64,000 nt of DNA from Halobacteriovoraceae bacterium (GTDB taxonomy: Bacteria; Bdellovibrionota; Bacteriovoracia; Bacteriovoracales; Bacteriovoracaceae): positions 186,001-250,000 of the forward strand of contig PASN01000019.1 in assembly GCA_002711995.1 (NCBI GenBank). Reading direction: 5' to 3'. Position 1 is the stretch's first letter. Each line of letters starts with the position of its first letter. The notes below the pieces were generated by a model that did not search any database, was not told the DNA's origin, and saw nothing but the letters and a program-made list of their open reading frames with translations. Both the position numbers and the translations under genes were made by a program. This document shows positions 1,425 through 46,256 of the stretch, one piece after another.

Positions 1425-2760
1425 TTCGTACAATAGCGTTATCGTTGGAAAGTCGTACGTATCCATTGCCTTTGCAATCTTGCAGAAAACGAGGTTGGGA
1501 ATTGATAACCTCGTCCTAGACGATGAAACTTTTCAGTTAGGGGATAAGTGGAACACAAATATTGGAGAGCTTGAAAAGAAAACCCTTCAAAAGCTTGGAC
1601 AAATTTACAATATTGAGCCATTGGCCAGAATTGATCAATTTATAGAGCAGAACAACACACTTATTTTTCTCAATGAAAAAATGATTGAGCTTTGAAGCTC
1701 GCCGTTTTCAAACATAAAGGAGCTTGCAAGAAAGCTCCCACAATGCTTTTCCAATGAGTTTATTGAAAGTCTTGAACAGATAGTTCCGGAGAGTTTCGAC
1801 GCTCAGGTAGATGGCTTTTTTAATAAGGTTGCCGTTGATTCTGTGGATGAGAAAAAGCTTGATGAGAAGAGGTTGTTCTTAGGTGAGTCTGAGCCCCTTG
1901 AGAGTGTTTTTAAAAGATTTTTAAAATACTTCGAAAGCGATCAGCTGGTCACAAATCAGCTTCACTATATACTGCAAGCGCTTTTTCAAACTCTGATATC
2001 GAATGTTCTGTCTGAAACAGAGTCACGCTATCTTTTGGCCGCAATATTGTCGCCAAGATATCGCATTGACACTAAGCGATTGGAAGAAGAGTTGATGTTT
2101 TCCTATAAAAGCATGGGGGGGAAAAGTAAGAAGGCCAAGATACAAAGGTTTGAGATTTATAAAAATAGCCTAGAGTACATTCTTTTAGATAGTTTTGAAG
2201 GCGCTATTAAAACGGACAAGGTTTACCTGTTTGGACACTTTGAACAAGGTCCTCAGTTCGAATATCGTCATGAATCAACTCTTTATAAAAGCATCACTGT
2301 TAGCTGCCCTTTAGATCATAAATTTGCCGAAAGATTTGTTGGAAAAAGAATAATTTTTTCTTCCGCGGACAGAATGGGAACAGATTTTCCACATTGGGAA
2401 GTTGTTATTGATGAAAAGCATGTGGCCCGGGCGTTTTATGTATATGCAAATTATGAAGGCGCAAAACCAAGCTTCTACTATAAGAAGGCCTCTGATGATC
2501 TTTACCACTCTTTAAATACTGTGTTTCCTGGGCTCGATCAAACTGATTGGGAGTCTCAAATTGAGTTCAATAAAGGCCATGACGTTTGGCTGGAGAAAAT
2601 AGAGGAAAAAGTTGATTCAAAGAGGCAGGCTATCAAGTCTGAACTCGGAGGCCAATGCTATCAAAACGGTGTTCCCGTTAAAAAGCTTGTTTACTGTGGC
2701 CCTCTCAGAAGCAGATTCCTGGGCCTGTTTGGTTATCTTCTCAATATATTCAACCATTAA
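1411..2760 (+). pseudogene. FAD/NAD-binding-like protein interrupted by an in-frame TGA
   Basis: One reading frame runs from ATG 1411 to TAA 2758 and would give 449 residues, but codon 95 is TGA (1693-1695). The frame before the stop (94 residues) and after it (to 2760) is the same, and the 147 bases between the stop and the next ATG at 1843 are open and coding-like. The N-terminus has a Rossmann-type start (SVIVGKSYVSIAFA) followed by LVLDDETFQLGDKW, like FAD-dependent amine oxidase/mutase proteins. The C-terminal part is not recognised. TGG to TGA (Trp) is the simplest explanation, giving MIEL-W-SSPF. It overlaps the WaaA-like gene by 14 bases, so it may act in envelope sugar chemistry; this is inference. 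It could be a pseudogene, a sequence error or a read-through gene. Confidence 0.65.
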
Positions 2761-2815
2761 GAGGCAATCCTTTACCTGACTTTAAAACCAACAGGGTTTT
2801 TGAGAGAATACCACC

Positions 2816-3031
2816 ATGAGAAATCTCAATGATCTTGGCCAAACAATGGTCGAGTACATTCTTCTTTTGGCCGTAGTTTCTGTCATAACAGTGTCCTTGT
2901 TTAAATCCCTTGAAGATTCGCTTGTTTCTGGACCTAATAGTCTAATTAATTCTTATTTAGGGGAGTTTAACCAGATGTTTCAGGGTGGAAGTTACAATGG
3001 CCAGTATAAACGCTTCACAATTAAGCGCTAA
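2816..3031 (+). CDS. Flp-type IVb pilin / pseudopilin-like protein
   Basis: A 71-residue protein with a class III (prepilin) signal. Gly8 is followed by QTMVEY and a hydrophobic stretch of about 18 residues. Glu at +5 and Tyr at +6 after the predicted cleavage site is the hallmark of Flp/Tad pilins. The hydrophilic C-terminal 35 residues have no known motif. In the family such proteins are cut by a TadV/FppA peptidase and assembled or retained in the inner membrane. No tad secretion gene (tadA, tadB, tadC, rcpA) is in the window, so this is an isolated pilin gene. The spacer to the previous gene is 55 bases. Confidence 0.7.
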   Translation: MRNLNDLGQTMVEYILLLAVVSVITVSLFKSLEDSLVSGPNSLINSYLGEFNQMFQGGSYNGQYKRFTIKR

Positions 3032-3172
3032 GTTGCTGATTTTACAACGTCATTAGTGTAAAAATTCTAAACACCCAATGTAATTATTTCTATGTAGTGT
3101 GAAAAATGTGTTGTGCGGTGCAGCTTCTCGTTATGCTTTAAAGGCAAATATTATTTTCGAGGAGCAAAAACT

Positions 3173-4315
3173 ATGAAAACGAACAACAGCAAAACACGCA
3201 ATGTATTATTAGCGTTGGCAACAGCTGCTTGTACACTTACAGGAGCAATGGCCAACGAAGACGCCATCTTGAACTCTGACCCAATCAACATTAATGGGTA
3301 TGTGCAGGAAGCGCCAGCGACAGACCACGAGCTTGAAACAGTAAAGAACGAGCTTAGAAAACAAAAGCAGGCAATTCAGGTCAACAAGGAAAAAGGAAAG
3401 AAGTACAAAGAACTTTCTAGAACCACTGAGAAGTTGGCGGATGTAACTGAAGAGATGATTGACGAAAGAAAAGAGTCTCAGGAAACAATTGATAGATTTA
3501 ATAAGAAAATCGACTGTCTTATGAAAGAAAACGCAGCAGATCCAGATTGCGATGAATTTGTAAGAGGTAGAAGGAACCAGGACGTTGTTAGCACTGGTCA
3601 GGCCGCGCCACAAAAAGTAGAGGCGAGCATTTCCGTTCCAGGAAAAGCGGGCGATAGGATTAAGGTGCTTCCTTATTCTGGAATGACGGCAATTAGTTCT
3701 GAAAACGAAAGCCTTGAGGCCAATATTGATGCTGGTCTTAGAGTCGAATCAGATATAACTGAAAGATTAAGCGTTGGTCTGGGATTTGGGTACACCATTC
3801 TTAAGACTACTGACTTCGCAAACGCATACCAAGGCTATTACCAGTCTGGTTGGGATAGAGGCGACTATTCAAACGCTTACGCAGGCGGAAGAGAAGTTGA
3901 GTATTCAAACCTAGGGTTTGAGCTGTACTCAAAGTTCTTTGTAACCAAGACTAACAGGTTTAGACCCTACATTGGCGGCGGTCTTTCATACAACCGTTCT
4001 TCAATGAACTATATGAACAATACCAACCAAAGCTACACTTACCAAAACGGTATGGAGCAGAATGTAATGAGATTTGGCGACGAGGAAGTAATTTCCAGTC
4101 ACGTAAAGGCACAAATAGTAGGTGGCTCTGAGGTGATTTTCACCAAAAATATTGGTATGAACCTTGAGCTTCAATATGCAAGAGGACTTGGGGGCAACCT
4201 TTCAAGTGAGTCCGCAATGAGCGGGCCTGACCAAAGAAGACTGGAAGAGCTTAACAATGAGCTAATTTCAGCAAACATGTTTAGCGTATTTGCAGGTATG
4301 TTGTTTCAATTTTAA
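3173..4315 (+). CDS. Outer-membrane beta-barrel protein with N-terminal coiled coil
   Basis: A 380-residue secreted protein. The start at ATG 3173 is chosen because it follows GAGGAGC and opens a typical signal peptide ending in GAMA; an upstream ATG at 3113 would add 20 residues and spoil the signal. After the signal comes a charged helical segment (residues about 50-120, rich in K/E with LETVKNELRKQKQ-type heptads). The rest alternates polar and hydrophobic residues with many Gly/Tyr/Asn and ends in Phe (MLFQF), as in outer-membrane barrels of the OmpA/OprF-barrel type. The combination suggests a barrel with a periplasmic helical domain. A strong terminator follows directly. Function unknown. 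Confidence 0.7.
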   Translation: MKTNNSKTRNVLLALATAACTLTGAMANEDAILNSDPININGYVQEAPATDHELETVKNELRKQKQAIQVNKEKGKKYKELSRTTEKLADVTEEMIDERKESQETIDRFNKKIDCLMKENAADPDCDEFVRGRRNQDVVSTGQAAPQKVEASISVPGKAGDRIKVLPYSGMTAISSENESLEANIDAGLRVESDITERLSVGLGFGYTILKTTDFANAYQGYYQSGWDRGDYSNAYAGGREVEYSNLGFELYSKFFVTKTNRFRPYIGGGLSYNRSSMNYMNNTNQSYTYQNGMEQNVMRFGDEEVISSHVKAQIVGGSEVIFTKNIGMNLELQYARGLGGNLSSESAMSGPDQRRLEELNNELISANMFSVFAGMLFQF

Positions 4316-4346
4316 TTAAACCAACCTACCAACCTCGAAAAATAAG

Positions 4347-4372
4347 ACCCTCCTTTGTGGAGGGTTTTTTTA
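4347..4372 (+). terminator. Rho-independent terminator after the barrel protein gene
   Basis: The stem ACCCTCC / GGAGGGT with loop TTTGT is followed by a run of seven T. It lies 32 bases after the stop codon of the outer-membrane protein gene. Confidence 0.85.
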
Positions 4373-4479
4373 TGTCCGACAGTCGCACTCCAGTTTGAAC
4401 AAATGTTAAAAAAGGCTCATTGTAAAATCAGCTAAATCATTTAAAATAGTTAAAGTTGATAATTATAATTGGAGCAAAT

Positions 4480-5778
4480 ATGAAACCTGTTTATCTCGTT
4501 GAGGGGATTCGAACTCCTCAGGCAAAAAGTGGAACCGCTTTAAAAGAAGTTCCTGTTCCTTACCTCGGACACGGCCTAATTCGTCATTTAGTTGAAAAGC
4601 ACAATATTGCCGCGGATGAAGTGGATGAAGTTATAGTTGGCAACACAGGAAATCCTGCTAAGTTTCCAAATGTTGGGCGTGTAATTGCATTGGAAGCGGG
4701 GTTGGATAAAAAAACCAGCGGCTACACCGTTCACAGAAACTGCGCTTCTGGTATGGAGGCGATGTCTCAAGCTTTTGTGAAGATAGCAAGTGGAAGATCG
4801 GATGTGATCTTTGCTGGCGGTGTGGAGAACATGTCTCAGATGCCTCTTCTTTATAAAAAAGAAATGACTGAGTTCTTTTTTGAAATGATGAAGGCAAAAA
4901 CTCCAAAAGATAAAATAAAAGTGGCAACCACTTTTAGAATACCTCACTTAAGTCCAGTTATTGCCATTGAGCAGGGACTGACTGATCCGTTTTGCGGCCT
5001 AAACATGGGACAGACCGCAGAGAAGCTAGCAAGAGAGTTTGGGATCTCAAGACTTGAGCAAGACGAGTTTGCAAATGAGTCTCACAATAGAGCTCTTAAA
5101 GCTCAAGAGGAAGGAAAATTTAAAGACGAGATTCTTCCAATTATTGGCGGTGAGAAACTTGATGATCTTGTGTCAGAAGATGTCGGGCCAAGGGCCAACT
5201 CAACAATAGAGAAACTTGGAAAATTAAAACCATACTTTGAAAAAAGAACTGGTACCGTAACCGTGGGCAACGCTTGTCCTATTACCGACGGTGGCAGCAT
5301 GTGGCTTATGTGTTCCGAAGAGGCCGTTGAAAAATACAACCTTAAACCAATGGCCAAAATGGTGGACTTTCACTTTCACGGGCTAGAGCCTGAGAGAATG
5401 GGGCTAGGCCCAGTGCTTGCGATGGATGGAGTTCTTAAAAGAGCAAACATGAGTCTAGCGGACATGGATCTGATTGAAATCAACGAGGCGTTTGCAGCGC
5501 AAGTGCTTGCTTGTTTGCAAGTTGCAAAAGATAAAGACCTTGCAGCCAAATGGGGCATTGACGCTCTAGGTGAGATTGATCTTAACAAGTTAAATGTTAA
5601 CGGTGGGGCCATCGCTCTAGGGCACCCTGTTGGATCCACTGGATCTAGATTGGTTGTTACACTTGCCCATGAGTTAAAGAAAAGAGGCGCCAAGTATGGA
5701 ATCGCATCACTATGCATTGGTGGCGGTCAAGGTGGAGCTGTTATTGTTGAGAATTTGCAAGCGGGGGATAAGGCATGA
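4480..5778 (+). CDS. fadI: Acetyl-CoA acyltransferase (thiolase, beta-oxidation)
   Basis: A 432-residue thiolase that cleaves 3-ketoacyl-CoA to acetyl-CoA and a shortened acyl-CoA. Catalytic residues are visible: Cys88 in NCASGM, His382 in GHPVGSTG and Cys412 in CIGGGQGG. ATG 4480 is taken as the start because GGAG lies 7 bases upstream and the conserved thiolase N-terminus (YLVEGIRTP) begins there; an in-frame ATG at 4456 has no ribosome site. Length fits FadI/trifunctional-beta thiolases better than the 380-390 of FadA. Its stop overlaps the fadJ start (ATGA), so the two are translationally coupled and probably form one complex. Confidence 0.92.
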   Translation: MKPVYLVEGIRTPQAKSGTALKEVPVPYLGHGLIRHLVEKHNIAADEVDEVIVGNTGNPAKFPNVGRVIALEAGLDKKTSGYTVHRNCASGMEAMSQAFVKIASGRSDVIFAGGVENMSQMPLLYKKEMTEFFFEMMKAKTPKDKIKVATTFRIPHLSPVIAIEQGLTDPFCGLNMGQTAEKLAREFGISRLEQDEFANESHNRALKAQEEGKFKDEILPIIGGEKLDDLVSEDVGPRANSTIEKLGKLKPYFEKRTGTVTVGNACPITDGGSMWLMCSEEAVEKYNLKPMAKMVDFHFHGLEPERMGLGPVLAMDGVLKRANMSLADMDLIEINEAFAAQVLACLQVAKDKDLAAKWGIDALGEIDLNKLNVNGGAIALGHPVGSTGSRLVVTLAHELKKRGAKYGIASLCIGGGQGGAVIVENLQAGDKA

Positions 5779-28334: not shown

Positions 28335-29312
28335 ATGGAAATTAAAAGAATTGTTGGAATCGGTGTGGCGGTTTTTGCTTTCTCTGCATGCAATGAAGCT
28401 GTAGAGGAGCGTATTAACACCGTCTATGAAGAAGAGGCGAGAAAGAAAGAGACTTTTTCGGCAACTGACAAGTATGGGCCTTTAAAGGTTAAAGTAGGCG
28501 AGTTTTCTGGAGTAAGCTCAATCAAGCCTTGGTCAGCTTGGTGGTATCCCCTGAACGAAAAAACCATGTTTTACAAACCAAGAGGTGGCGCTTCACCTTT
28601 AGAAAAATACGACTATTACTCGGGAAAAATGTTTAATGTGTTTTCCGAGTCTGCGCTGTACGAAGAGAGGGAAGTATATCGTCCTAATGAAGTTGGATGG
28701 GCAGGCCTGTGTCACGCTTGGGCAATAGCGTCTGTACTTCACCCTGAACCAACTGAAGCTAAGACTGTTGGAGGTGTTAAGTGGTCTGTGGGAGATCAGA
28801 AGGCGCTTTTACTGAAAACGTATGAAAAGGCCGTTGGGATCTCAGACATTATGATAGGAGAGCGATTTAACGGGGATAGAAATGACGATTATGACGACAT
28901 TTACCCTGATCAATTTCACAAGCTTGCGCAGAATCACCTTGTAAAAAACAAGATGCCATTATTAATGGACTACGATCCGCGATTTCCTGTGTGGACCGTT
29001 CCTGTTTACAAGGTAAAGTTCATCATCGAAAGACTGAGTAATACCAGCGCAAAGGTGAAGGCATTTGTAACATTTGCTAGTCCACACGTTGACGACCACA
29101 ATTATGTAGGCACTAAAAGAGTTATCAAATCCTACGATTATATTCTCAAAGGTCAGTGGAATAATGGAACTTTGAATGTGACTGACGGGGAGTGGATTGA
29201 AGGCAGTAAGACGGACCACCCTGACTACCTTGTTTCTTTCCCTGACTCCATAGAGAGAGGAAGCCTTAACAAGGAAATTAATCCTGAGATCGTTGACTCT
29301 ATTCTTAAATAG
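28335..29312 (+). CDS. Secreted lipoprotein with transglutaminase-elicitor-like Cys-His motif
   Basis: A 325-residue lipoprotein (lipobox FSAC, Cys19). The notable motif is GWAGLCHAWAIASVLHPEP around Cys126-His127, which resembles the catalytic region of the Phytophthora/Vibrio transglutaminase-elicitor family (W-x-G-x-C-x-G/A-x-A...PEP). Other shared blocks with its neighbour are DDIYPDQFHKLAQNH, LLMDYDPRFPVWTVPVYK and the Tyr-rich C-terminal YDYILKGQWNNG. GGGAG precedes the ATG. Together with the next gene it forms a paralogous pair. If the family call holds it would cross-link proteins or polyamines outside the inner membrane; this is inference. Confidence 0.6.
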   Translation: MEIKRIVGIGVAVFAFSACNEAVEERINTVYEEEARKKETFSATDKYGPLKVKVGEFSGVSSIKPWSAWWYPLNEKTMFYKPRGGASPLEKYDYYSGKMFNVFSESALYEEREVYRPNEVGWAGLCHAWAIASVLHPEPTEAKTVGGVKWSVGDQKALLLKTYEKAVGISDIMIGERFNGDRNDDYDDIYPDQFHKLAQNHLVKNKMPLLMDYDPRFPVWTVPVYKVKFIIERLSNTSAKVKAFVTFASPHVDDHNYVGTKRVIKSYDYILKGQWNNGTLNVTDGEWIEGSKTDHPDYLVSFPDSIERGSLNKEINPEIVDSILK

Positions 29313-29323
29313 GAAGCGTTTGT

Positions 29324-30697
29324 ATGAAACACAGTTTTCTGATTATTTTGTTTATTATTATTGGGGATGTCCATGGTCAAGAGACCATGGACCTGGAGAG
29401 GTGGAAATCACCTCTCGCACCCAAAAAAGTCTCCCATAGGAACACCATTGTATTGGGGAACGGCCAATTTCACGATATGTGGGTTTCTATTGGGAGACCC
29501 AAAAGTGGTTACCGAAGCGAAGATCATTTTAGAAAACTATTGCCTGCATATAGTGGAATCGAAAAACTCCATAGCAATATCTTCTATTTCGATAACATTA
29601 AACTATTTGAAGGTGCCTCCAAAGAAAAATTTTGGAGTTACATAAATTCTCCCACTAGCAAGGGGGGGCTAGCCCAAAGACCTGGAATGGAGAATTCAAA
29701 AGAGAAGTGGCCACAAACCTTAAATCGGTTTAAAAGCACGCCTCCTTCATCGCTTTTAAAAAGTGGACGTTTTAGTGATATGTCAGCAGCCGAGAAATAT
29801 GATTTTCTCTTTGGAGAGAAGACCTACCTTTTTGATCACGAGGTGAACTATTCAAATTCTGTCTATAAAACATTCGGCAGCATTGCCTATTGGGCAGGAA
29901 TATGCCACGGAACAGCTCCTGCTAGTTTCATGTACCCGGAACCTCTAAGAAGCGTCCAGGTGAAGGCCTATGACGGTAGAAGCATCCCCTTTAGTGTGAA
30001 AGATATAAAAAGACTAGCAGCACATGCCTGGGCCGAAAATAACTACGATATATCTTTTATTGGAGGACGTTGCGATATCGATGAGCTGGGCTCTAGAAAA
30101 CCTGAATGCTTAGATACTAATCCGGCCACTCTTCACTTGGCATTGTTAAACTATATTGGTCTGCACGGTAAAACTCTAATTATGGATAACGCCTATGATT
30201 CAGATGTGTGGAATCGACCGATCATGGGATTTAGCTATAAATATGTGAACCCTAAGAACGGTTTGAGGTCAAGACTTCTAAAACATGCCCTGATTAAAAG
30301 GAGTGAGTACCCTGAAGATCCGAATAAGTGGAATCGCCGCATTGGGACTCATTACTTAGTTGGTGTTCATATGAAGGTAAAGCTTCTGTTTGGCGATGAA
30401 GAAGGAAGCGATTCTCGAGCAAATGGATACGAAATTCATTATAAATACGATTTAGAAATAGATAAGAAGGGTAGAATCGTAGGTGGAGAGTGGATTACTC
30501 AATATCATCCAGATTTTTTATGGATGGTGCATGAAGGAAATTCACCAAAGTCCAGTGAAGATTTGTCCATCAGTCAAAATTTATGGAGTGGAAAATCTCC
30601 ATTATCATCTAAGGTGAAAAGGCTAGGACAGCAAGCGGCCGAGAGAGGCCAAGTTTTGGAATATATTGTTAGAAGCCTGTTGGAACTATCAAAATAA
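29324..30697 (+). CDS. Second secreted Cys-His protein, transglutaminase-elicitor-like
   Basis: A 457-residue exported protein with a signal peptide (residues 1-18, ending VHG). The core repeats the upstream gene's pattern: YWAGICHGTAPASFMYPEP with Cys194-His195, then ..PATLHLALLNYIGLHGKTLIMDNAYDSDVWNRP and IHYKYDLEIDKKGRIVGGEW. The extra 65 residues are mostly N-terminal. It starts 11 bases after its paralogue, so the two are one operon. AGGA lies before the ATG. The conserved Cys-His and Trp-Asn segments suggest a papain/transglutaminase-like enzyme; the substrate is unknown. Confidence 0.6.
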   Translation: MKHSFLIILFIIIGDVHGQETMDLERWKSPLAPKKVSHRNTIVLGNGQFHDMWVSIGRPKSGYRSEDHFRKLLPAYSGIEKLHSNIFYFDNIKLFEGASKEKFWSYINSPTSKGGLAQRPGMENSKEKWPQTLNRFKSTPPSSLLKSGRFSDMSAAEKYDFLFGEKTYLFDHEVNYSNSVYKTFGSIAYWAGICHGTAPASFMYPEPLRSVQVKAYDGRSIPFSVKDIKRLAAHAWAENNYDISFIGGRCDIDELGSRKPECLDTNPATLHLALLNYIGLHGKTLIMDNAYDSDVWNRPIMGFSYKYVNPKNGLRSRLLKHALIKRSEYPEDPNKWNRRIGTHYLVGVHMKVKLLFGDEEGSDSRANGYEIHYKYDLEIDKKGRIVGGEWITQYHPDFLWMVHEGNSPKSSEDLSISQNLWSGKSPLSSKVKRLGQQAAERGQVLEYIVRSLLELSK

Positions 30698-31084: not shown

Positions 31085-32029
31085 ATGGTTAAAAGAATTC
31101 CATTTTACTACAATGGCCTGCTTTTGGTTTTAAGCGTTATTGGTCTAATATATTTCAGAAATATTCTTCTTCCACTTGCATATTCTCTATGCTTTGGAGT
31201 GTTTGTTTACCCTTTCTATAAATGGGGACGTGCTCATAAGATTCCCAAAGGTTTGAGCGTGCTTGTTGTAAGCCTGGTATTTGTGTTTGTGTCTAGCATG
31301 CTCCTTTATCTGTTTGCATTTGCGATACAGGGTTGGCTTGACTTTTTTAATGCTCACGGCAAAGAATTAGCAGTAGTTCAGGATTCTTTATTGGATTATT
31401 TGGATAGATTTGATTTGGAAGAGTACTTTGTTGATCAAAAAATCACAGAGCACATTATGTCGATGTTGCAGTTTTTTTCATTCTCAATAGTTAGCTACTT
31501 AAGCCTTTTTGCTCTGTCTTTCATTTTTTATGTTTTCATATTTTTCGCACCTGAAAGACACTTGCAGCGAATGCTTGATTTTCGAGACACAGGCGCTTTG
31601 CTGCGGACCTACATCCGAATTAAGCTTTTTATAAGTTTGGTAACCACTGTCTGTGTGTCGTTTATCTTTGTGGCATTCGATATTGATTATTGGGAGTCGG
31701 TGGCCATCTTGGTTTTTATACTGAATTTTATACCAAATCTTGGCAGTATCGTGGCGACCTTGCTGCCTTTGCCAATGTTTTATTTTGCCCATGGTTTTGA
31801 GCCTGAGTTTTGGTTTCTCTTGCTTTCTACCTCATTGGTCCAATTTACCTTTGGCAACATGGTTGAACCGAAGATAATGGGCAGTTTTTTAAACATCCCA
31901 GGTATCGTAGTAGTTTTCTTCCTTTTAGTATGGGGGAAGGTCTGGGGCGCTTTGGGAGTCTTCTTTGCTGTCCCATCATTGATATTTCTCTCACAAATAA
32001 ATCCTAAGCTTAGACGTTTGTTCGCCTAG
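31085..32029 (+). CDS. AI-2E family transporter (PerM/YdiK type)
   Basis: A 314-residue membrane protein with about seven to eight hydrophobic segments. The N-terminal double helix (YYNGLLLVLSVIGLIYF, ILLPLAYSLCFGVFVYPFY), the central amphipathic domain and the C-terminal NFIPNLGSIVATLLPLP and VEPKIMGSFLNIPGIVVVFFLLVWGKVWGALGVFFAVP blocks are typical of the UPF0118/AI-2E exporter family. Length is a little below the usual 340-370. Substrate unknown; despite the name most members are not proven AI-2 transporters. No clear ribosome site before ATG 31085. Confidence 0.88.
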   Translation: MVKRIPFYYNGLLLVLSVIGLIYFRNILLPLAYSLCFGVFVYPFYKWGRAHKIPKGLSVLVVSLVFVFVSSMLLYLFAFAIQGWLDFFNAHGKELAVVQDSLLDYLDRFDLEEYFVDQKITEHIMSMLQFFSFSIVSYLSLFALSFIFYVFIFFAPERHLQRMLDFRDTGALLRTYIRIKLFISLVTTVCVSFIFVAFDIDYWESVAILVFILNFIPNLGSIVATLLPLPMFYFAHGFEPEFWFLLLSTSLVQFTFGNMVEPKIMGSFLNIPGIVVVFFLLVWGKVWGALGVFFAVPSLIFLSQINPKLRRLFA

Positions 32030-32134: not shown

Positions 32135-32386
32135 ATGCTTATCAAACTTAGAAATGGCGTCAAACTGGATGATGAAAAGAAAACATTGCTAGTGCTTTCC
32201 AACTACAACAAGGAAGTTTCAGATCTTCTAATGGAGCAAGACAAGAGCTTTTGGAACTCAACAATATGCTTCGTTGATAGTCTTGAAAAAATTAGGTGGG
32301 AGTTACAGAACGGACTCTATGACTATTTATACATACCTTTAAATAAGTTGCACCTTGTTGATAGAAGACTCTTTAATATCTTGTAG
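32135..32386 (+). CDS. Hypothetical 83-residue cytoplasmic protein
   Basis: The product is not recognised. It has no signal or membrane helix. The pattern (KTLLVLSNYNKEVSDLLME..TICFVDSLEKIRWELQNGLYDYLYIPLNKL) alternates strand and helix and recalls a shortened receiver fold without the phospho-Asp. GAGGCGAAG precedes the ATG. It starts a compact cluster with two small envelope proteins and the YihY fusion gene, so it may serve the same envelope function. Confidence 0.5.
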   Translation: MLIKLRNGVKLDDEKKTLLVLSNYNKEVSDLLMEQDKSFWNSTICFVDSLEKIRWELQNGLYDYLYIPLNKLHLVDRRLFNIL

Positions 32387-32394
32387 GAGGAATA

Positions 32395-32823
32395 ATGATA
32401 AAGATACTTTATGTCGGAATGTTTTCCCTTATGGCCTTCGCCATCGCAAATAGCGGTATTAAATATGAACGTTTATCTTCGGTGGAAGAATCTCGAATTC
32501 AAAAGCAAGAGGAGAGCTCTGTCGAGTTAAGCACCTTGTTGGAGAGAAAATTTGACTCTCTAAGGCACAAATCCCTTTTGCTCGATAGCTCGGTGGATAC
32601 AAATGAAAAATTAAGGTATTTGACTCACTCAGATAATTTTGAGGAAGCTCTTTTTTTGATTGACTATCTTCAGGATCGATTTAAGGAGATTGAAGGGAAT
32701 GAAGAGGATGGAGCTCTAATTGCTGATATAGAATTTTACCTTAATCGACTCGAACAAAATTTAGACGTGGTAGAAAAGGATCTTAGCTTCTACTCTAAAA
32801 CGCCCGAAGAGGGGGAGCGATGA
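32395..32823 (+). CDS. Hypothetical membrane-anchored or exported protein
   Basis: A 142-residue protein with an N-terminal hydrophobic segment (ILYVGMFSLMAFAIANS) that acts as a signal peptide or anchor, then charged helices (LSTLLERKFDSLRHKSLLLDS, EEALFLIDYLQDRFKEIEGN, EFYLNRLEQNLDVVEKDLSF). The coiled-coil pattern suggests a periplasmic helical bundle. TAGGAGG lies before the ATG. Its stop overlaps the next gene's start (ATGA). Not recognised. Confidence 0.55.
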   Translation: MIKILYVGMFSLMAFAIANSGIKYERLSSVEESRIQKQEESSVELSTLLERKFDSLRHKSLLLDSSVDTNEKLRYLTHSDNFEEALFLIDYLQDRFKEIEGNEEDGALIADIEFYLNRLEQNLDVVEKDLSFYSKTPEEGER

Positions 32824-33011
32824 AGAAGTCCACATTCTCCTCAGACCTTTTTCTTTTTGTGGCCGTTAGTTCACTGTTTTATATGTTGAGCTTTATGGCC
32901 TCAAAGGTTGGCCTGGACGGCGACATCTTCCATGGCCTAGGAGGCAGGTTTGGGCAAAAGATTGCCAAGTCTGTTCCCACTCCAGAGGTTGATTCAATTT
33001 CTCGAAGATAG
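32820..33011 (+). CDS. Small single-span membrane protein (63 residues)
   Basis: The product has one transmembrane helix (LFLFVAVSSLFYMLSFMAS, residues about 10-28) and a short Gly-rich, basic tail (GLGGRFGQKIAKS). It overlaps the upstream gene by 4 bases and ends 8 bases before the YihY fusion gene, so it belongs to the same operon. It could be a small subunit of that membrane protein. Not recognised. Confidence 0.55.
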   Translation: MKKSTFSSDLFLFVAVSSLFYMLSFMASKVGLDGDIFHGLGGRFGQKIAKSVPTPEVDSISRR

Positions 33012-33019
33012 TCTTTTTT

Positions 33020-34570
33020 ATGTCCCGTAAAAGAGATAAATTGAAGAGGGTAATAAAGGCGATTCGAAACAAGGCGGACACCGATGATATATTTATCCTT
33101 TCAAGCTCCGTTGCTTATCACAGTTTTCTAAGTTTTATCCCAATAATATCCGTACTGGTAGGTATCTACCTAATCTTAAACTTTAATTTGGATTGGGGGC
33201 ATTTTAGTTTGATAAAAGAACTGGTGCCCCCTGACATGTATAAACTGGTTGAAGGACAGGCACAGCGTATTAATGAAAATCTTAATACTATTAACATCGC
33301 AACCGCATTTTCATTTCTTATTTCTTTATGGTTGGCCAATAACGTAACAAGAACGTTGGCCCACAGCTTAAATATTGTCTTTTGTAGAAAAGATCAGAAG
33401 CATTTCTTATTTTCTCTTGGTGAGTCAATACTTTACACTCTTGTTCTTGTTTCCAGCTTTATGTTCCTAGGTTTTATGTTAACAGTATTGCCTTTGATTT
33501 TTTCCTTCTTTGATCCTTCCCAGAGGTGGGAGTTTCTTTTCATCTTATTCCAATGGAGTGTGGTCTCACTTTATATGGTTTTTGGCCTTTGTTTTGTTTA
33601 CAAGTACCTGCCCGCTCATGGCAAAAAAATTGGTTGGAACAAGTTTCTGCCAGGGGCAGTTGTCGCCACTGTCTTTGGAAGTCTCTTGGCGCTTATGTTT
33701 AGCTTTTATGTTAGCAACTTTGGAGCTTTCAACAAGGTTTATGGAGCGCTCGGAGTTATTATAGTAATGCTACTATGGCTTAGACTAACCTTCGCAAGTG
33801 TTTTATTTGGGGGAGAGGTGAATTTTTTTCTACTCGAAGATCCATCGCTAAGAAGTTATTACCGAGTTAAGATGTTGTTTTCTGAGTACAGAGAAGAAGG
33901 GAAACAGAGGATTCACTGGATTCGAGTTTTCCTTGCGGTAGTTTTCATTGTCGTCCTAAGCGCCCGTATCTACTTTCCAGTTCAACTTGATAAAAACCTC
34001 GCTAAAAAGATAGAGGACTCTGAGCTGAATATCACTTACGATGATGTTGATATACAAACCTTTTTGGCCGATCTTCAAATTGAAGACTTAAGACTGGAAG
34101 TTAATAATAGTGTTTTAAATTTTAAGACATTTAAAAACGATATTGGCTGGCTGTCCCTAGGAGTAAGAAATAGAAGGTCAAATGTTCAATACAGAGGGGG
34201 AGTTGCGGTGTTGGACCATAGCGATGCTTACGAACTGGCACAAGCTTTAAACAAGTTTACTGAGGTGGTGGCATATGGAGGGGTTGAAGATTTAGTCATA
34301 AATGATCTAGTTGTTAAGCTGCTCCATCCTGATAGGACAGAGCGTATTGTAGTGAAGAAAATAGTACATAGTGTAACTAATGGAGACATTGAAATCGTTG
34401 GCAGCAGCCCAAAGTTAATTATAAGAGGTCGAAGAGTTCCTTCCGAAAGGAAGTATGAGGTTTCAATCACAAGGAACAACATAGTCAATGCTTTCACCTG
34501 TGAAGGTGCATCATGTACTTCCGCTATCTTGCAGGAACTCACCCAAAGGAGGGCTAAGCTTGAGCAATGA
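33020..34570 (+). CDS. YihY/BrkB membrane protein with extra AsmA-like C-terminal domain
   Basis: A 516-residue protein. Residues about 15-285 are a YihY/BrkB (former RNase BN) domain with six membrane helices; family blocks are SSVAYHSFLSFIPIISVLVGIY, YKYLPAHGKKIGWNKFLPGA and SFYVSNFGAFNKVYGALGVIIVMLLWLRL. The family normally ends there, at about 280-320 residues. Here a seventh helix (IRVFLAVVFIVVLSARIYF, about 297-315) and about 200 residues follow, with DKNLAKKIEDSELNITYDDVDIQTF and repeated beta-strand patterns like AsmA-type proteins. This is an unusual fusion. A plain YihY gene lies at 45336. Confidence 0.72.
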   Translation: MSRKRDKLKRVIKAIRNKADTDDIFILSSSVAYHSFLSFIPIISVLVGIYLILNFNLDWGHFSLIKELVPPDMYKLVEGQAQRINENLNTINIATAFSFLISLWLANNVTRTLAHSLNIVFCRKDQKHFLFSLGESILYTLVLVSSFMFLGFMLTVLPLIFSFFDPSQRWEFLFILFQWSVVSLYMVFGLCFVYKYLPAHGKKIGWNKFLPGAVVATVFGSLLALMFSFYVSNFGAFNKVYGALGVIIVMLLWLRLTFASVLFGGEVNFFLLEDPSLRSYYRVKMLFSEYREEGKQRIHWIRVFLAVVFIVVLSARIYFPVQLDKNLAKKIEDSELNITYDDVDIQTFLADLQIEDLRLEVNNSVLNFKTFKNDIGWLSLGVRNRRSNVQYRGGVAVLDHSDAYELAQALNKFTEVVAYGGVEDLVINDLVVKLLHPDRTERIVVKKIVHSVTNGDIEIVGSSPKLIIRGRRVPSERKYEVSITRNNIVNAFTCEGASCTSAILQELTQRRAKLEQ

Positions 34571-36098: not shown

Positions 36099-36896
36099 CT
36101 ATGAGGGGCACTTAGTGAACTGGCCCTTATTGCGATTGTATGTCTTAAGTGCGCTTTTCATATTGCTTCTTAGCTTCTCAATTCTGCTTTGAGGGGCAGG
36201 GTGGGTGCTTAACCACTCTGGAGGAGCTGACTTGCTTTGATTTTTCATGATTTCCCAAAACTCAACCGCTGCTCTTGGGTTGAATCCCGCTTCTGCCATC
36301 AAGTCTAATCCTATTTTGTCCGCTTCACTTTCGTGCTTTCTTGAGTATGGCAGTAGTATTCCTAACTGAGCTCCCAGGCCTAAGGCTCCCAGAATCATCT
36401 GATTTTTTTGGGGACTACCCGAATCTAGAGCAATATCAGCTGCAACTAAGCCGCCTTGAACAATAAGGCTTTGACTAATTCTTTCGTTGCCATGACTGGC
36501 GAGAACATGGCCAACCTCGTGACCTATCACGGAAGCAATTTGATCATTTGATTGGGCCGCATTAATTAGGCCTGTATATACGCCTATATTTTTTCCTGGA
36601 GTGGCGAAAGCATTCACTGCTTCGCTGTCAAATACCTTAACATCCCACTCGCTGAAATTGTTGTTCTTTGACATGCTGGATACAATTCTCTCAGCTATGC
36701 ATTCAATACGTCTTTTTAAGGCCGGGTCATCGCTTAATTTTTGTTGTTTTTGCATTTGTTGAAAGGACTGATCTCCCATTTTTGCCAACTGATCTTCTGG
36801 AAGAAGGGTAAGCTGCCTTCTGCCTGTAGGAGATTGAGAACAGCCAACAAATACCGCCATAATTGGAATTATGTAAATTAAACGTCCTAATTTCAT
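36099..36896 (-). CDS. M48-family zinc metalloprotease lipoprotein
   Basis: A 265-residue lipoprotein (VFVGC, Cys19) with the M48 zinc-protease core. HExxH lies at residues 126-130 (VIGHEVGHVLASH), and the third zinc ligand Glu is in KHESEADKIGLDLM. The N-terminal NAFATPGKNIGVYTGL and C-terminal WLSTHPAPQSRIEKLR blocks match BepA/LoiP-type outer-membrane quality-control proteases. The family clears misassembled outer-membrane proteins. GAGGAGC precedes the ATG. It is not linked by overlap to its neighbours. Confidence 0.93.
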   Translation of the reverse strand: MKLGRLIYIIPIMAVFVGCSQSPTGRRQLTLLPEDQLAKMGDQSFQQMQKQQKLSDDPALKRRIECIAERIVSSMSKNNNFSEWDVKVFDSEAVNAFATPGKNIGVYTGLINAAQSNDQIASVIGHEVGHVLASHGNERISQSLIVQGGLVAADIALDSGSPQKNQMILGALGLGAQLGILLPYSRKHESEADKIGLDLMAEAGFNPRAAVEFWEIMKNQSKSAPPEWLSTHPAPQSRIEKLRSNMKSALKTYNRNKGQFTKCPS

Positions 36897-45335: not shown

Positions 45336-46256
45336 ATGGAGTTTAGCTTTCTTAAGTCACGGCCTGTGGGTGTAAGGGCGAATACCCCTACAGATTTTAA
45401 CTTTGGAGATTGGAAGCAAATCGCAGTAAGAACCAAAGACCAAATTGCCAAGGACAATGTAGGCATAGTTTCAGCTGGTGTTGCTTTCTATACGTTCCTA
45501 GGTCTTTTTCCACTTTTGGCAGCATTCGTTGCCTTGTATGGTTTAGTAGCCTCACCTGAAGATGTCACTGCGATTGTAAGCTCGCTTCAGGGGGTGGTGC
45601 CGGAAGACATAATAGGTGTTTTTGAGACGCAGTTAACAAGACTTGTTTCGGAAGATAGTGTTGCAAGCTATGCCGCGGCGATTAGTATTCTTATTGCTGT
45701 GTGGAGTGGTTCCAAGGCCATTAAGGGGATGATGGCCGGTCTAAATATTGCCTATGATGAAAGTGAAGACAGAAATATATTTAAAAAGAACGGTGTGGCC
45801 TTGGTGTTAACCCTTGGTGGGATTATAACTGGAATGGTCGCTGTTTTTTTAGTCGCTGGTGTTCCTGCACTCTTTAGTTATTTTAACCTTGGTGACTTTA
45901 CTCAAACAATTGTACAACTTGCCCGCTGGACACTGTTGGCCGTTTTGATCATATCCGCCCTAAGTGTCCTATATCGATGGGCTCCAAATAGGAAAGCGGT
46001 ACATTGGAAATGGATCACACCTGGATCATCAATGGCCACCTTTGTATGGCTTTTAGCATCGGGGATGTTTTCTTGGTATGTTTCAAATTTTGGCAACTAC
46101 AATAAAACCTATGGAAGTTTGGGAGCAATTGCAGTTCTCTTAATTTGGCTGTCGATAAGTTCTTTTGTATTTATGCTTGGCGCGGAAGTCGATTCAGAGT
46201 TGGAAAGACAGGCTGGTATGAACACCAAGGAAGGCAAGCGCAAAAAAGTAACTTAA
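45336..46256 (+). CDS. YihY/BrkB family membrane protein
   Basis: A 306-residue protein with six membrane helices. Family blocks: NVGIVSAGVAFYTFLGLFPLLAAFVALYG, GSKAIKGMMAGLNIAYDE, LYRWAPNRKAVHWKWITPGS and SWYVSNFGNYNKTYGSLGAIAVLLIWL. Length is normal, in contrast to the fused paralogue at 33020. The family was once called RNase BN; the real function is unsettled. AAAGGAG precedes the ATG. Confidence 0.9.
   Translation: MEFSFLKSRPVGVRANTPTDFNFGDWKQIAVRTKDQIAKDNVGIVSAGVAFYTFLGLFPLLAAFVALYGLVASPEDVTAIVSSLQGVVPEDIIGVFETQLTRLVSEDSVASYAAAISILIAVWSGSKAIKGMMAGLNIAYDESEDRNIFKKNGVALVLTLGGIITGMVAVFLVAGVPALFSYFNLGDFTQTIVQLARWTLLAVLIISALSVLYRWAPNRKAVHWKWITPGSSMATFVWLLASGMFSWYVSNFGNYNKTYGSLGAIAVLLIWLSISSFVFMLGAEVDSELERQAGMNTKEGKRKKVT

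Follow-up and report, generated by a model that had tools for sequence, protein, structure and literature searches.

The window, a 64,000-nt stretch of DNA from Halobacteriovoraceae bacterium (GCA_002711995.1, contig PASN01000019.1, positions 186,001–250,000, forward strand), encodes a 516-aa protein in which a YihY/BrkB domain is joined through a seventh membrane helix to a tail, the start of which (residues 306–405) can be assigned with fair confidence, on profile comparison, as AsmA-like. As far as the sequence goes the fusion is real, and the sequence-only reading of a YihY/BrkB protein extended by a further domain held: a single open frame without internal stops carries a BrkB match over residues 22–271 (PF03631, E 1.1e-41, 143.7 bits against a cut-off of 33.7) that places the protein within the YihY/BrkB family, the curated threshold of TIGR00765 (yihY_not_rbn) is passed as well (81.8 bits against 73.15), and the coding signal runs unbroken from the YihY part (0.175 bits per codon) into the tail (0.162), with the five remaining frames all negative.

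The hydropathy scan of the 516-aa protein returned ten peaks, some of them overlapping, which we read as the six YihY helices plus helix 7, the latter being a strong and separate peak at residues 303–321. Past this helix there are ~195 residues with no membrane segment, in agreement with the earlier description of a seventh helix leading to about 200 residues. The N-terminus is rich in K/R (9 K/R, 4 D/E) and the linker preceding helix 7 carries 7 K/R and 6 D/E, a weak sign. Membrane sides were assigned by the positive-inside rule: because the number of YihY helices is even and the N-terminus is K/R-rich, the linker is probably cytoplasmic and the tail should face the periplasm. The layout of the gene and its surroundings is collected in Table 1.

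Table 1. Features of the fusion gene and its neighbourhood (window coordinates).
Position	Strand	Feature	Basis or remark
31085..32029	+	AI-2E family transporter	PF01594, E 1.3e-29; head of probable transcription unit
32135..32386	+	83-aa ORF	likely in the AI-2E/YihY-fusion unit
32395..32823	+	142-aa ORF	likely in the AI-2E/YihY-fusion unit
32820..33011	+	63-aa ORF, one hydrophobic stretch	overlaps preceding stop; 8 nt upstream of YihY gene
33020..34570	+	516-aa YihY/BrkB protein ending in an AsmA-like tail	ATG start, internal stops 0
33083..33832	+	YihY/BrkB domain, residues 22–271, interpreted as six membrane helices	PF03631, TIGR00765, hydropathy
33833..33925	+	linker, residues 272–302, probably cytoplasmic	hydropathy and charge count
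33926..33982	+	seventh membrane helix, residues 303–321	hydropathy mean 2.4
33935..34234	+	AsmA/Chorein-N-like start, residues 306–405, overlapping helix 7	profile comparison score 37.1
34235..34567	+	remaining tail, residues 406–516, coding, no detectable relatives	Pfam, AlphaFold, shuffles, codon score
34554–35588	-	protein with sub-threshold baeRF (release-factor-like) match, convergent to YihY fusion	Pfam
36099–36896	-	M48 metallopeptidase, lipoprotein-like start	
45336..46256	+	YihY paralogue, 306 aa, without tail	

AsmA-type proteins are regarded as lipid carriers. A profile of 23 AsmA/DUF748-like tails, taken from relatives with the YihY-plus-tail arrangement, matched residues 306–405 of the window protein with a score of 37.1 (HHalign probability 55) and with the position relative to the helix conserved. 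This score exceeds those of all 59 controls, which are real ORFs with an N-terminal membrane helix: the highest of them was a T2SS GspN of the Leptospira type (L047:2-973 +, named by NCBIfam) at 34.3, followed by a DUF748 protein (Pfam 56.5 bits) at 28.8, and the other 57 reached 19.3 at most. The AsmA-like start that had been proposed from the letters alone is supported for the first hundred residues from helix 7, and the near-equal match of GspN to the AsmA-like N-terminal profile gives a hint of a shared fold. With the helix removed the similarity of the tail is weak, being equalled by 1 of 300 shuffles in the profile comparison and by 2 and 9 of 2000 shuffles with two HMMs, the larger number belonging to the iterated HMM. 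The strand repeats that had also been claimed are not established: residues 409–516 show no detectable similarity to the tail profile, their score being equalled or exceeded by 217 of 300 shuffles, and AlphaFold predicts the tail with a pLDDT below 50. DUF748 is related to AsmA/TamB (PMC4494059) and the N-termini of AsmA/TamB proteins resemble Chorein-N lipid-transfer domains (PMC6791001).

Family models and genome searches gave little for the tail of the window protein itself. Pfam-A returned no match to the tail up to E 1, and the tail stays under the 50-bit cut-off of DUF748 (PF05359); NCBIfam returned no AsmA-type match, its best hit (E 0.14) being dismissed as chance. Searched against 368 genomes of the window's phylum, the tail found only itself below E 0.001, and no orthologue of the fused protein was detected in these genomes. 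The next matches (E 0.006–0.5) were short; those read as ORFs included a GspN-like protein under its model cut-off (L048) and the adjacent DUF748-like gene (L050), and three others (L033, L038, L045) we take to be unrelated. Within the window's own genome the AsmA Pfam model had no match and the DUF748 model found one separate gene, on a different contig.

Structure prediction of the window protein, from an alignment of 12 rows, gave a mean pLDDT of 50, with the tail below 50, which is too poor for judging a groove. The best Foldseek matches of this model were to the N-terminal domain of ATG2 (E 0.06–0.22, probability 0.60–0.84), to which we give little weight in view of the low model quality and of the DUF748-like rows used in the alignment. 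A better model was obtained for a relative with the same architecture, L080, the beta part of which (~430–570) is built of blocks with pLDDT 53–90, mostly above 70. Foldseek placed the VPS13 N-terminus first for this model (E 1.1e-4), with ATG2 and LPD-3 also found, all of them on the tail, and VIA-align returned VPS13 (Z 7.9), LPD-3 (7.7), TamB in TamAB (7.3) and ATG2 (6.7), all inside model residues 290–641, that is the final helix plus the tail. A Z below 8 may reflect merely a common arrangement; the four best folds are nevertheless all lipid-bridge proteins. The tail of L080 is thus predicted to fold like VPS13, ATG2, LPD-3 and TamB, L080 (the same protein as L052) being the one relative for which a groove-type fold of the tail was checked. 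VIA-align matches to its helical part (rhodopsins and transporters, Z 4–6) were treated as generic helix bundles. Sequence searches of the PDB gave no match for the tail profile and no relative with a solved structure for YihY, for which the sole match (E 1.2) is attributable to chance.

The sequence-only reading had also proposed a search for the same fusion elsewhere, and this returned two more YihY–DUF748 fusions, 12 adjacent pairs and one pair in reversed order in Bacteroidota. Within the window's phylum, the match of the YihY query extends beyond the YihY domain in two genomes (G173 and G361), and in a third (G181) a match of the tail search lies directly beside a YihY match; at the loci of these three and of G167, YihY is fused to, or lies directly upstream of, a helix plus ~330–370 residues. 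The tails at four loci (L053, L052, L057 and L056) all pass the DUF748 cut-off of 50 bits, at 65.8–84.7 bits, including those of the two fusions: L053 (= L074), from a Bdellovibrionaceae MAG, at 75.3 bits and L052 (= L080), from a Bacteriovoracaceae MAG, at 69.7 bits. The YihY loci were drawn from most, though not all, of the matches listed for the YihY query in the 368 phylum genomes, and a tree was built from 120 unique YihY domains, nearly all from this phylum. A DUF748-like gene lies immediately downstream on the same strand for 12 of the 120; two are the fusions L074 and L080, one is the window protein and two have a DUF748-like gene nearby on the opposite strand, and for the remaining 103, some of which are close to contig ends, no DUF748-like neighbour was detected. 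By our own estimate, made without a tool and assuming that a genome of ~3,300 genes has about three for DUF748, chance would yield ~0.1 adjacent pairs per 120. The 12 pairs do not represent 12 independent events, since most of them sit in one branch of the tree. The fusions L074 and L080 fall in separate sub-branches of this main paired branch; the window YihY lies in a different branch, together with its own paralogue, and its fusion therefore looks independent, or convergent. On our reading, YihY was joined to such a tail on about three separate occasions.

Outside the phylum, one of 198 Bacteroidota-centred genomes (G387, locus L166) carries the pair in reversed order, with the DUF748-like gene (101.3 bits) upstream of YihY and both on one strand; in a close relative (G382) the two genes stand at the ends of two contigs, which is compatible with the order in G387. 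At the other Bacteroidota and Fibrobacteria loci (L075–L079) YihY was not found beside the tail gene, and among the matches listed for 150 genomes of a set centred on Fibrobacteria, a third phylum, there was no adjacent YihY–DUF748 pair. One Fibrobacteria MAG (L076) has two tandem DUF748-like genes (2594–3784 and 3827–4990, both +). A separate tail gene expected beside L010, the sister of the window YihY in the tree, was not borne out, the gene that follows being one we take to be ParB-like. The E. coli genes yhjD and yhjG, the latter of the AsmA family, are on opposite strands at a distance of two genes, an association too weak to use. A search of the open-access literature, covering titles and abstract starts and leaving subscription papers and preprints outside its scope, returned no report of a YihY–AsmA link.

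Comparison with known systems shows where the window protein departs from each of them. Ordinary YihY/BrkB members end shortly past helix six, whereas here helix 7 and a predicted periplasmic tail are added; the earlier statement that YihY proteins stop after six helices stands as the norm, with known exceptions such as the PRK04214 fusion (NF003256), in which YihY is followed by an uncharacterised C-terminal domain. The window protein shares with this type the presence of a C-terminal extension, but matches its YihY part only (residues 16–267, 54.2 bits against the 500 needed) and thus falls outside the family. Closer to it is L054, from the window's phylum, whose own tail weakly matches Rrf2 (regulator-like); L054, L055, L069 and L064 are further long YihY proteins of the phylum with a different C-terminal extension, the match of L054 to PRK04214 reaching into the tail. 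The window protein resembles the AsmA/TamB/YhdP/DUF748 superfamily in having a membrane helix that leads into a probable Chorein-N-like start, and relatives of the arrangement pass DUF748; the window tail, however, is short and passes none of the curated models, and AsmA proteins normally begin with a single helix of their own, whereas the window tail is preceded by a YihY domain.

The coupling of a putative Chorein-N groove to a multi-helix membrane protein also recalls ATG2/VPS13 and their scramblases (TMEM41B, VMP1, ATG9), although these partners are eukaryotic, non-covalent and of the DedA and ATG9 families rather than YihY. ATG2 works with scramblases that re-equilibrate the leaflets (PMC8072408). 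A bacterial counterpart has been put forward with DedA (COG1238) as an inner-membrane lipid transporter feeding an AsmA bridge (PMC10127716), a proposal that concerns DedA instead of YihY and that, in the part of the paper available to us, makes no mention of a fusion. For the YihY side, a further paper reports a role of E. coli YhjD in LPS transport, with binding of LPS and co-purification with LptB (PMC3219608). TIGR00766, the model for YhjD, hits L074 in its YihY part with E 5.6e-9, at a score far under the model cut-off, and by this sequence likeness YhjD appears to belong near the YihY family.

In the window, the YihY-fusion gene is probably the last gene of a unit headed by the AI-2E transporter, with three small ORFs between them; this operon is proposed because of the gene spacing, and a scan for promoters and terminators found sites no more numerous than in shuffles. 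A gene that we take to be AI-2E-like lies directly 3' of the G361/L080 fusion too (L052:3429-4484 +), and a relative of this gene or of the window AI-2E gene is present in L028; the two full-length AI-2E genes (window and L052) are weakly alike, with a best BLASTP E of 0.007. The AI-2E transporter may act as a third partner, or its presence may be coincidental. Upstream of this unit, two adjoining genes (28335–29312 and 29324–30697) encode exported proteins that look like paralogues, since both carry a W-A-G-(L/I)-C-H motif followed by an (H/Y)PEP motif.

We put at about an even chance the proposal that the window protein is an inner-membrane lipid-exit module. Here, the six-helix YihY part would move, scramble or gate lipid between the two inner-membrane leaflets, helix 7 would lead the chain into the periplasm, and the AsmA/Chorein-N-type domain could act as a short hydrophobic scoop, taking lipid from the outer leaflet of the inner membrane and passing it to another carrier or bridge. 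As a tail of ~195 residues is too short for spanning the periplasm, it would form the entry to a bridge rather than the complete bridge. On the analogy of scramblases with ATG2, our best reading is that YihY supplies or re-equilibrates lipid for the AsmA-type groove, a lipid-handling role that we infer from the association and from the literature on E. coli YhjD. The lipid role that had been suggested at the outset gains support because the pairing recurs in more than one branch of the tree and also in another phylum, and it draws as well on the AsmA-like first 100 residues and the groove-like fold predicted for L080; it is weakened by the lack of any Pfam AsmA-type match in the tail and by the low confidence of the tail model, on which the groove check proposed at the outset failed.

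Three other explanations have to be set against the lipid-exit module. A rather doubtful one is that the AsmA-like tail is a scaffold or docking piece only, which positions YihY near envelope machinery, and that YihY itself moves a cargo other than bulk lipid, e.g. an ion or a small solute. Such a role would suit a tail far shorter than the DUF748-like tails of the relatives, with no groove repeats detectable in its second half and with a start similar to that of GspN of the T2SS; it sits less well with the full DUF748-like domains that relatives possess in the same arrangement, and with lipid-transfer grooves being the best fold matches of the L080 model. We regard as unlikely that the AsmA resemblance is accidental in a TM-anchored beta domain, the window tail then being an unrelated lineage-specific periplasmic domain and the DUF748 pairs a separate matter. 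The absent family match, the low-confidence model, the shuffles that equal the iterated HMM score and the placement of the window YihY and the paired YihY in different branches would all agree with an accident; the real TM-anchored controls were outscored without exception, though, and those that came near were GspN and a DUF748 protein, and in the alignment the helix-then-tail position at the YihY C-terminus matches that of the two DUF748 fusions.

Highly improbable, finally, is an artefact in which assembly or annotation wrongly joined two distinct genes, one of them for YihY: the protein comes from one draft genome and an orthologue with the same tail was not found, but the open frame and codon bias continue across the junction and two other genomes have the same architecture.

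A wider and more tentative extension of the lipid-exit module, which we hold to be on the doubtful side, is that YihY proteins in general are the partners, scramblases or gates, that feed bacterial AsmA-type grooves, a counterpart of TMEM41B, VMP1 and ATG9 feeding ATG2/VPS13, and that the repeated fusions expose a partnership usually formed by separate proteins. We know of no established inner-membrane feeder of AsmA-type proteins; the recurrent fusion and adjacency described here link the two families and give a concrete pair, which bears on the entry of lipid into AsmA-type bridges at the inner membrane and on the job of YihY/BrkB proteins.
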